Shown here piece by piece: positions 60,407-63,483 of a DNA stretch of 64,000 nt (its first letter is position 1; the number at the start of each line of letters is the position of its first letter). The notes below the pieces were generated by a model. That model did not search any database, was not told the origin of the DNA, and saw nothing but the letters and a program-made list of their open reading frames with translations. The translations under genes were made by a program, and so were the position numbers. Source of the DNA: Erythrobacter tepidarius (GTDB taxonomy: Bacteria; Pseudomonadota; Alphaproteobacteria; Sphingomonadales; Sphingomonadaceae); assembly GCF_002155695.1 (NCBI RefSeq), contig NZ_MUYJ01000001.1:186001-250000 (forward strand). The letters run 5' to 3'.

Positions 60407-61867
60407 GTGCCAATCATGCTGGAAAATCTCGATGCCCTGCTGCTCGCGCGGATCCAGTTCGCCTTCACGGTGAGCTTCCACTTCTTCTTCCCGGCCTTCT
60501 CGATCGGGCTGGCGAGTTATCTCGCGGTGCTGGAAGGGCTGTGGCTGAAGACGGGCAAGAGCGTCTATCTCGACCTGTTCAAATACTGGCTCAAGATCTT
60601 CGCGATCGCCTTTGCCATGGGGGTCGTCTCGGGGATCGTCATGTCCTACCAGTTCGGCACCAACTGGTCGGTGTTCTCGGACAAGGCGGGGCCGGTGATC
60701 GGCCCGCTGATGGCCTATGAGGTGCTTACCGCCTTCTTCCTCGAGGCGGGCTTCCTTGGTGTGATGCTGTTCGGGATGGAAAAGGTCGGCAGGAAGCTGC
60801 ACTTTGCCGCCACGCTGATGGTTGCGCTGGGCACCTTCGTTTCGGCATTCTGGATCCTCAGCGTCAACAGCTGGATGCAGACCCCGGCGGGCTATTTCGT
60901 GGGCGCGAACGGCCAGTTCATGCCGGGCGAGAGCTGGTGGGCGATCGTCTTCAACCCGAGTTTCCCCTACCGTCTCGTCCACACCGTGATGGCGGCCTAT
61001 CTCACCACCGCCTTCGTGGTCGGTGCGGTGGGTGCATGGCATCTGCTGAAAGACCGCGCCAATCCCCATGCGCGCAAGATGTTCTCGATGGCGATGTGGA
61101 TGGCCGCGCTCGTCACGCCGGCGCAGATTTTCGCCGGCGACATGCACGGATTGAACACGCTCGAACATCAGCCCGCCAAGGTGATGGCGATGGAGGGGCA
61201 CTATCAGAGCCACCCCGAAGGCGCCCCGCTGATCCTGTTCGGCATCCCCGACAGCCAAGCCAAGCAGGTGCGCCATGCGATCGAAATCCCCAAGGCATCC
61301 TCGCTGATCTTGAAGCACGATCCCGACGCGCCGCTCGCGGGGCTGGACACCATTCCCGATGACGAGGAGCCGCCGGTCGCAATGGTGTTCTGGGCTTTCC
61401 GCATCATGGTCGGCATCGGCTTTGCGATGCTGGGCATCGGGCTGTGGAGCCTGTGGGGCCGGATCCGCGGACGACTTTATGACATGCCGTGGCTCCACCG
61501 CGCCGCGGTGCTGATGGGGCCGAGCGGTTTTGCCGCCGTTCTCGCCGGATGGATCACCACCGAAGTCGGCCGCCAGCCCTATGTGGTCTATGGCCTGCTG
61601 CGCACCGCGGATGCGGCGAGCCCGTTGGATCAGCCGGCCGTGGCGGCATCCTTGCTGGCCTTCATCCTCGTCTATTTCACCGTTTTCGGCATCGGCGTGT
61701 GGTATATCCTCAAGCTGATGGGCAAGGCCCCGCACGCGGGCGAATATGGAGTCAAGCGCGGCGATACCGGTCCGATCCGCACCGCCGGAATCACCCCGGG
61801 GCCGACCCAAAACCCGCTCGGCGAGGAGACGCTGCCCTCGGCCCCTTCCGAAAAGGAGCCGGTGTGA
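60407..61867 (+). CDS. cydA: cytochrome bd ubiquinol oxidase subunit I
   Basis: The 486-residue protein is CydA. Heme ligands are His25 (SFHFFFPAF, E. coli His19) and His192 (HTVMAAYL, E. coli His186); WITTEVGRQPYVVYGLLRT is the C-terminal signature. The Q loop is short, so it is the short-loop (CIO-like) kind. The start is GTG 60407, 6 nt after GGAAGG; ATG 60416 is an alternative. Bd oxidases resist sulfide, which suits the neighbouring SQR operon. Confidence 0.95.
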   Translation: MPIMLENLDALLLARIQFAFTVSFHFFFPAFSIGLASYLAVLEGLWLKTGKSVYLDLFKYWLKIFAIAFAMGVVSGIVMSYQFGTNWSVFSDKAGPVIGPLMAYEVLTAFFLEAGFLGVMLFGMEKVGRKLHFAATLMVALGTFVSAFWILSVNSWMQTPAGYFVGANGQFMPGESWWAIVFNPSFPYRLVHTVMAAYLTTAFVVGAVGAWHLLKDRANPHARKMFSMAMWMAALVTPAQIFAGDMHGLNTLEHQPAKVMAMEGHYQSHPEGAPLILFGIPDSQAKQVRHAIEIPKASSLILKHDPDAPLAGLDTIPDDEEPPVAMVFWAFRIMVGIGFAMLGIGLWSLWGRIRGRLYDMPWLHRAAVLMGPSGFAAVLAGWITTEVGRQPYVVYGLLRTADAASPLDQPAVAASLLAFILVYFTVFGIGVWYILKLMGKAPHAGEYGVKRGDTGPIRTAGITPGPTQNPLGEETLPSAPSEKEPV

Positions 61868-62862
61868 TGGATCTTACCGTCATCTGGGCCTTCATCATCG
61901 CCTTTGCCGTGTTTGCCTATGTGGTGATGGACGGCTTCGATCTCGGCATCGGCATCCTCTTTCCCGCCTTTGCCTCCGGGCGCGAACGCGATCGGGCGAT
62001 GAACTCGATCGCGCCGGTGTGGGACGGCAACGAAACCTGGCTGGTGCTGGGTGGGGGCGGGCTGTTTGCCGCCTTTCCGCTGGCCTATGCGGTAATCCTG
62101 CCCGCGACCTATCCGCTGATCATCGCGATGCTGCTGGGTTTGGTGTTCCGCGGGGTCGCCTTCGAATATCGCTGGCGCGACCCTGCGCACCAGAAATTCT
62201 GGGACATGGCCTTCACCGGCGGCTCGCTGGTCGCCGCGCTGGCCCAGGGGATGACGCTGGGGGCGCTGCTGCAAGGGATCGAGGTTTCGGGCCGCGCCTA
62301 TGCCGGCAGCTGGTGGGACTGGCTCACGCCCTACACCCTGCTGACCGGCCTCGGCACGGTGGCGGGCTATGCCTTGCTGGGAGCAAGCTGGCTGATCTGG
62401 AAGCTCGATGGGGCGGAACAGGCCCACGCGCGCAAGCTCGCGATCGGTTGGGGTGCGGCAACCATCGTGCTGATGGGTGCAGTCAGCCTCTACAACATCG
62501 CCTTGAAGCCCGAATATGCCGAACGCTGGCTGTCCGCGCCGGAGATCTACTGGGTCGCCCCGGTGCCGATCGTCACCGCGATTGTCGCGCTGTCGATGCT
62601 GCGCGCGATCCTCAAAGCGCGCAATTCCAAGCCATTCTGGCTCGGCATCGCGCTGTTCTTTCTCGGGATGAGCGGGCTGGGCGTGACGATCTGGCCCTAT
62701 GCCGTGCCCGAAGCATTGACCATCTGGGACGCCGCCGCGCCCGAGCGCAGCCAGATCTTCATGTTGGTGGGCGTCGCGCTGACCATGCCGCTGATTATCG
62801 CCTACACGGCCTGGGCCTACTGGGTGTTCCGCGGCAAGGTGGCCGATGAGGGGTATCACTGA
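61867..62862 (+). CDS. cydB: cytochrome bd ubiquinol oxidase subunit II
   Basis: The 331-residue membrane protein is CydB. It begins with [14 protein letters not shown] and has [25 protein letters not shown], the family signature. It overlaps cydA by one base (TGATG), and its stop overlaps the repeat-encoded frame in the same way. Confidence 0.95.
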
Positions 62863-63005
62863 TGTCCTCAAGCAGCGAAGCGTTAGGACAGAAAATACCT
62901 TCCTCAAGCAGCGAAGCGTTAGGACAGAAAATACCTTCCTCAAGCAGCGAAGCGTTAGGACAGCAAATACCCTCCTCAAGCAGCGAAGCGGCAGGACGAA
63001 AATAA
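62862..63005 (+). CDS. possible 47-residue repeat peptide between cydB and cydX-like gene
   Basis: The ATG at 62862 overlaps the cydB stop (TGATG) and the TAA at 63003 overlaps the next gene's ATG (TAATG). The frame is made entirely of the 36-bp repeat, giving four copies of [12 protein letters not shown] with small changes. Such double coupling would be unusual by chance but follows automatically if a repeat of 36 (a multiple of 3) was copied inside a coupled junction. I cannot say if a stable peptide is made; the frame used by the repeats in the -1 register is also open. Confidence 0.35.
62865..63004 (+). repeat. 36-bp tandem repeat array, ~3.9 copies
   Basis: Copies begin at 62865, 62901, 62937 and 62973 (last one shortened by 4 bp). 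Each starts TCCTCAAGCAGCGAAGCG. Copies 1 and 2 are identical, copy 3 differs at two positions, copy 4 has diverged more. There are no spacers, so it is not CRISPR. It lies exactly between cydB and the CydX-like gene. Confidence 0.95.
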
Positions 63006-63139
63006 TGCTTGCCCCGCCCGAGCAACCGCCCGAAGCGCCGCTGTGGCAACGCCTCCTGTGGATGGCAGGCATCTGGGCTGCGAGCGTGGCGGTGCTGGGC
63101 GCGGTCGCCTTTGTCCTCCGCCTGTGGATCGCCCCTTGA
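63005..63139 (+). CDS. CydX-like DUF2474 small subunit of cytochrome bd
   Basis: The 44-residue protein begins with a proline-rich stretch (PPEQPPEAP) and continues [19 protein letters not shown], the core of DUF2474 proteins that follow cydAB, with one membrane helix (residues ~17-40). The start overlaps the TAA of the repeat frame. A longer in-frame form starting at 62846 would add 53 repeat-derived residues, but the short form equals the family. Confidence 0.82.
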
Positions 63140-63483
63140 GCCGCGTGAAAGTCTGGTACGACGGGGGCTGCCCGCTGTGCCTGCGCGAGATCGCCCTGAT
63201 GCGGCGGCTCGATCGGCGCGGGCGCATTACCTTTGTCGATGTCGCGGCCGATGCCGACCCGTCCTGCCCTATCGACCGCGCCGAGCTGCTCGCGCGCTTC
63301 CATGCCGAGGAGGATGGCGTAATTCACGATGGCGCGGCGGCCTTTGCGGCAATGTGGCGCGCGATTCCCGTGCTGCGTCCGCTCGGCCTCGCTGCGCGCT
63401 CGCCTGGGGTGCTGCGGGTGCTGGAGGCGGCCTATGTGCGTTTCCTCGAACTGCGGCCGCGCCTGCAACGCCTGCTCGCCTGA
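63136..63483 (+). CDS. DCC-family thiol-disulfide oxidoreductase-like protein (DUF393)
   Basis: The 115-residue protein carries [12 protein letters not shown] at its N-terminus, the CxxC motif of the DCC family. It is likely a thioredoxin-like protein of unknown partner. The start is TTG 63136, whose TTGA overlaps the stop of the CydX-like gene; GTG 63145 is an alternative. The position suggests it belongs to the cyd operon. Confidence 0.85.

Follow-up and report, generated by a model that had tools for sequence, protein, structure and literature searches.

The best-known examples of mobile repeats lying in frame come from Rickettsia. Rickettsia palindromic elements (RPEs), repeats of 100-150 bp found in Rickettsia and Wolbachia, are described in passages of two papers as short dispersed repeats that lie in frame in many unrelated genes and at the same place in orthologues (PMC10969869, PMC3767692). 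A second kind of system, the mycobacterial interspersed repetitive unit (MIRU), is presented in part of another paper as inserting at a start codon, with an internal ORF coupled to the gene at a spacing of -4 nt (PMC12548453). Finally, an excerpt on GTAG and CGTC REPs describes short stem-loops with many copies and clusters, some of them in replication or repair genes (PMC3733652).

We analysed a window of 64,000 nucleotides of Erythrobacter tepidarius DNA (the whole stretch presented above) in which a 36-bp tandem repeat separates cydB from the gene for a small DUF2474 subunit. This array probably consists of four head-to-tail copies of a dispersed, translation-transparent hairpin element placed at an old cydB-DUF2474 junction. 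By analogy, the element appears to work like RPEs inside genes and like MIRUs at junctions. It is filed with none of RPE, MIRU and REP, in the case of RPE and REP because it falls outside the RPE size range and lacks the REP tag and transposase.

As with RPEs, insertion is in frame in genes that stay open (34/34 sense copies, and PheS with and without the insert), and aminoacyl-tRNA synthetase genes are among the hosts of both, going by the passages on RPEs cited above (PMC10969869, PMC3767692). The likeness is one of description: the element is a 36-bp unit with a 28-bp hairpin instead of 100-150 bp, it has a 6-bp stem, a conserved 16-nt loop and head-to-tail arrays, and copies are seen not only in Erythrobacter-like bacteria but also in viral contigs and in other families of the class. 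The likeness to MIRUs is one of geometry alone, that is, start-codon insertion with an ORF overlapping its neighbours at 17/17 occupied cyd junctions and at one viral junction, the latter with 4-nt overlaps; in contrast, the cyd overlap is 1 nt in 13/17 and the host is Erythrobacter-like. As in REPs, intragenic copies are found in genes such as MutL, RarA/MgsA, GapR and DciA. Unlike GTAG REPs, the element has no unpaired terminal GTAG, the AGG of GGTAGG lying within the covarying stem, and no RAYT (Y1) transposase is encoded in its own genome. CGTC REPs have a CGTC tag, an 8-9 bp stem and a 4-5 nt loop, whereas a 6-bp stem, a 16-nt loop and no conserved CGTC are seen here; the dominance of one reading frame among in-gene copies is a further difference from REPs. 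Core strings and the peptide SSSEAVG gave no match in the open-licence PMC literature, and none of the matches listed there described an element of this kind from Erythrobacter or its relatives.

The cyd array and its hairpin unit

The features of the locus, all on the plus strand, are as follows.

60407..61867, +, cydA-type quinol oxidase subunit I (ORF; start GTG at 60407 or nearby)
61867..62862, +, cydB (PF02322, E 8.8e-96; TIGR00203 above cut-off; stop TGA at 62860-62862)
62862..63005, +, mini-ORF of 47 aa (TGATG at 62860-62864 at cydB, TAATG at 63003-63007 at DUF2474)
62863..62890, +, element copy 1 (arms 62863-62868 and 62885-62890, 6/6 pairs)
62899..62926, +, element copy 2 (4/6 pairs)
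62935..62962, +, element copy 3 (4/6 pairs)
62971..62998, +, element copy 4, diverged: GCGGCAGG (5/6 pairs)
63005..63139, +, CydX-like small subunit, DUF2474 (PF10617, E 1.9e-10)
62846..63139, +, alternative fusion frame of 97 aa (ORF; kept open in few relatives)

Subunit I matched two NCBIfam cytochrome bd subunit I models with low E-values, under the model cut-offs. Its gene overlaps cydB by TGATG, the same type of join as at the end of cydB. TRF placed the array at 62865-63004 (period 36, 3.9 copies, 94% matches) with a score of 245, compared with 62 for the runner-up among 48 rows in the window. These results agree with the earlier note, which had reported nearly four 36-bp units between cydB and the CydX-like subunit, and the TGATG/TAATG geometry confirms its open frame, preserved by the 36-bp unit and overlapping both the cydB stop and the next start. 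The 97-aa frame begins within cydB, in another frame, and would place 53 residues before the DUF2474 Met.

Side-by-side comparison of loci from the E. tepidarius genome shows that the 36-bp unit contains a 28-bp hairpin made of a 6-bp covarying stem and a conserved 16-nt loop, with arm pairs such as TCCT/AGGA, GGCCT/AGGCC, GCCCT/AGGGC and CGCCT/AGGCG around the conserved CAAGYAGCGAAGCGGT. Stem covariation, with pairs counted over 26 element copies (25 distinct), was 0.393 versus 0.141 in shuffled data (0/500 as high), and slid-arm controls gave at most 0.114. The RNA fold of cyd copy 1 reached -10.2 kcal/mol (z -2.1); that of the entire array was slightly better than shuffles and unremarkable (z -1.45). 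Identity with a curated Rfam RNA was dropped, as the region 62700-63200 gave 0 matches at E<=10. One sense frame of the element is stop-free and encodes (A/P/S)SSSEAVGQQ.

Dispersal and reading frame of the element

The element is present at about 20 loci in the E. tepidarius genome. There, a DNA search recovered six places, and the 15-base core had 22 matches with at most 1 mismatch versus 2 for the reversed pattern, so that the recurrence is beyond chance. A covariance model found 34 places at E<=0.1, the last of which are weak and four of which (C8, C9, C10, C12) score identically. With the same approach, matches were obtained in 90/100 genomes of the genus (E<=0.001), in 106/396 genomes and 25/84 genera of the order (E<=1e-5) and in 15/398 genomes of the phylum (E<=1e-5), these last all from one class and including the E. 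tepidarius genome. Among viral contigs, 68 stretches carried the exact 22-base pattern and none the reversed one. A purely local minisatellite was rejected, the unit being dispersed across its own genome.

Some loci were inspected by eye. In the E. tepidarius genome and two other genomes of the family, a small gene with cysteine codons, DUF2256-like in appearance, has element copies nearby (L002:1464-1814, L259, L267); in L267, one copy seemingly supplies the C-terminus and stop of this gene. At 80.8 kb of contig C1 of the E. tepidarius genome (L006), a copy is found between genes resembling those of phage tails or gene transfer agents, next to a short direct repeat that surrounds a start codon. 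In G580, a genome of another family, all four listed copies (L316-L319) are in sequence resembling the 16S-23S rRNA operon spacer. An insertion-sequence end in this genome was considered and rejected, the four identical copies lying within a long shared rRNA-operon sequence.

Genes around the copies were called with a simple codon-usage caller trained on the window, mostly at best-scoring loci. Among 142 distinct copies in 110 stretches, many of the own-genome stretches overlapping, 105 were intergenic, 34 in genes in sense orientation, 2 antisense (L005 and L045, weak matches that are still counted) and 1 partial. The intergenic counts, here and in the viral sample, are too high because the caller missed small or truncated genes (L240, L267, L359, L370). 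Copies are depleted inside genes, since about 89% of the window was called coding. All sense in-gene copies use a single frame, the one encoding SSSEAVG (34/34 copies; 16/16 merged sites). The core C variant occurs in 22/34 of them, where a second sense frame is open, and two antisense frames of the element are open as well; stop codons alone are therefore insufficient to explain the use of one frame.

In the viral sample, 69 distinct copies comprised 26 in sense in the same frame, 1 in another frame, 1 antisense and 41 called intergenic, many of the in-gene copies recurring at identical positions in terminase and portal genes; after merging, 12/13 sense sites use the SSSEAVG frame. The figure for other families of the class is 5/6 sense copies, a count that leaves out L313, which belongs to the same family as E. 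tepidarius. The off-frame sense copies are L373 (viral) and L324 (other family).

The hosts include MutL, GapR and a cyclophilin in the E. tepidarius genome. Those in relatives include PutA, PheS, RarA/MgsA, GlyQ and DciA, together with members of the carotenoid-oxygenase and sodium:sulfate symporter families, and those in viral stretches include a portal protein, a ParB-like protein and phage terminases. Some of these short names are what we take to be the equivalents of the matched Pfam entries. In L336, L337 and other viral stretches, copies in the SSSEAVG frame are seen near the N-terminus of the terminase large subunit and the C-terminus of the portal protein.

PheS provides occupied and empty orthologous sites. 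Of the best 30 matches to an insert-bearing query, 23 have a short loop, as does the E. tepidarius protein; the loop is longer in the other 7, and in 6/7 an SSSEAVG-like peptide can be recognised. The ends of the insert are blurred, with the longer loops exceeding the short ones by 8 to 13 aa. In the alignments listed, the insert site corresponds to a gap in solved homologues (two PheS chains and one GlyQ chain). At G030:C1:481845-483050, a listed element copy divides the PheS match into parts whose query coverage overlaps, suggesting tandem element copies in this gene.

All array spacings are multiples of three in 5/5 in-gene and 5/5 cyd arrays versus 5/19 other arrays of the same sample, the intergenic arrays L241 and L254 each being entered as a single array among the 19 (Fisher p 2e-4 with cyd, 0.006 without). 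The viral arrays spaced by multiples of three are those of a junction mini-ORF and of an endolysin (L370). A counter-case is an intergenic viral array type with a spacing of 51, also a multiple of three, in three related contigs.

The junction mini-ORF just mentioned was found in L359 (170-280), L361, L364 and L365, which have nearly identical sequence and represent one site, not four. Three copies, 36 bp apart, form an ORF of 36 codons (MTPSSSSEAVG...SSSSEAVGP, or R), which shares an ATGA with the stop of the preceding gene and another ATGA with the start of the next, giving 4-nt overlaps. The neighbouring genes match phage head-tail adaptor and baseplate-hub or tail families. Judged by its layout, this junction appears to repeat the cyd design in other genes.

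The cyd junction in relatives

The junction was compared at 150 cydB loci (129 distinct), shown at cydB identities of at least 72%; pattern matches in L118, L121, L131 and L223 were dropped as spurious by eye. Those relatives in the comparison that carry a name indicate Erythrobacter/Porphyrobacter. In E. dokdonensis (L088), the TGATG junction is empty, and E. sanguineus (L093) has one copy exactly at this place. TGATG or TAATG directly follows cydB in 76/82 distinct loci (at least 79% identity, occupied ones included), and the overlap is therefore the usual cydB-DUF2474 arrangement. On a cydB tree of 83 loci, the junction holds one copy in 12, two copies in 3, four in 2 (E. tepidarius and G091) and none in 63; in 3/83, a copy lies within the DUF2474 N-terminus instead. 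L129, outside this tree, also has a copy inside DUF2474; there and in L228, these copies use readings other than the main frame. In L138 and L230, an internal stop was noticed in a DUF2474-like frame beside a second, diverged cydB.

In 17/17 occupied junctions, the mini-ORF stop is within 5 nt of a DUF2474 start. Stop and start overlap by 1 base (TAATG or TAGTG) in 13/17, the mini-ORF extends a few bases beyond the first possible DUF2474 start in 3/17, and in the remaining one (L200) its stop lies two bases ahead of the start; some cyd loci have additional possible DUF2474 starts further downstream. Every spacing in the five multi-copy cyd arrays is 36, and each copy adds 12 codons to the separate mini-ORF without a frame shift. 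The sister row of E. tepidarius (L089) has one copy, and copy number varies within close tree pairs, 1 versus 2 (L091, L173) and 2 versus 4 (L200, L201). Occupancy is patchy, with 15 parsimony changes, at least 8 of them forced by well-supported branches although bootstrap is not fully settled, and weakly clustered on the tree (6/500 shuffles as low). Consequently, one old insertion followed by losses, repeated insertion and locus exchange all fit.

These comparisons bear on three other explanations. The hairpin array could be kept as a regulator, its mRNA structure governing how strongly DUF2474 is translated or how stable the cyd mRNA is, and its copy number serving as the dose. The covarying stem, the fold of copy 1, the location exactly at the junction and the differences in copy number among species would all suit such a role, but 63/83 tree rows have no copy at the junction, presence on the tree is patchy, unrelated loci also carry the element, in no clearly preferred orientation, and the fold of the whole array barely beats shuffles. 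We therefore regard a regulatory array as unlikely.

It is very unlikely that, as proposed in the earlier note, a tandem repeat specific to this locus acts through its copy number as a phase-variation-like switch or tuner of oxidase assembly. The close tree pairs do differ in copy number, but spacings of 36 throughout mean that copy number never shifts the frame, the small subunit is not part of the mini-ORF, and the array is not particular to cyd: the search for the unit elsewhere found a dispersed repeat, the very outcome that the note had counted against its own idea. Tuning of the oxidase by copy number is thus not supported. The related idea that copy-number change varies a linker holds in so far as species have 0, 1, 2 or 4 copies; the small subunit, however, is not lengthened. 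That the other frame, in which the note had seen 53 residues fused to the small subunit, gives the true product is most improbable, since this frame, open in E. tepidarius (97 aa), requires a start within cydB, is open into cydB in just 5/17 occupied junctions and stop-closed in 12/17, and a DUF2474 start lies near the mini-ORF stop in all 17.

Insertion, spread and significance

Under the preferred reading, a dispersed element inserted at an old junction, the element would have landed directly behind the start codon of the cydB-DUF2474 TGATG. The mini-ORF would then run from the ATG of this TGATG to a new stop overlapping the displaced start codon (TAATG), and a ribosome ending cydB could reinitiate, translate the mini-ORF and reinitiate at the small subunit. 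The array is probably translated, and its peptide or copy number probably has little effect on the oxidase. The element may be selfish and mobile, filtered by purifying selection, and its arrays may grow and shrink through slippage or unequal recombination; where they are translated, changes by multiples of three would survive. The orientation of intergenic clusters to their neighbours is not clearly biased (19/12/12/11, p 0.39), which points to insertion without strand guidance and to selection for a tolerated peptide as the source of the in-gene bias.

No Y1 transposase (PF01797) was found in the E. tepidarius genome, and one is present in 7/114 genomes of the genus. Y1-bearing genomes include the copy-rich G037 (40) and G091 (25); G031 has 33 element matches without Y1, and the reverse holds in G002, with six Y1 matches but no element at E<=0.001. 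A RAYT-driven REP was rejected as a general explanation on the grounds of the G031/G002 mismatch and of the absence of Y1 from the E. tepidarius genome and 107/114 of the genus. Prophages are plausible carriers. A broader proposal, to which we give somewhat less than even weight, is that Alphaproteobacteria and their phages share a mobile element, as yet unnamed, that is built to be invisible to ribosomes: a 36-nt hairpin doubling as a sense codon cassette (SSSEAVGQQ), which could enter proteins, start codons and operon junctions and leave them working, would multiply there in steps of three and would spread by a non-RAYT route, perhaps via prophages or gene transfer agents.

For annotators, SSSEAVG tails and loops are likely to be insertions and not conserved domains. 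More broadly, the in-frame logic of the Rickettsia type now extends to Erythrobacter-like bacteria and phage sequences, and orthologous sites with and without the element exist both in PheS, a tRNA synthetase, and at a junction of translationally coupled appearance. The element may therefore offer a system in which to study the tolerance of genes to insertions, the survival of coupling despite them and the means by which very short repeats move.
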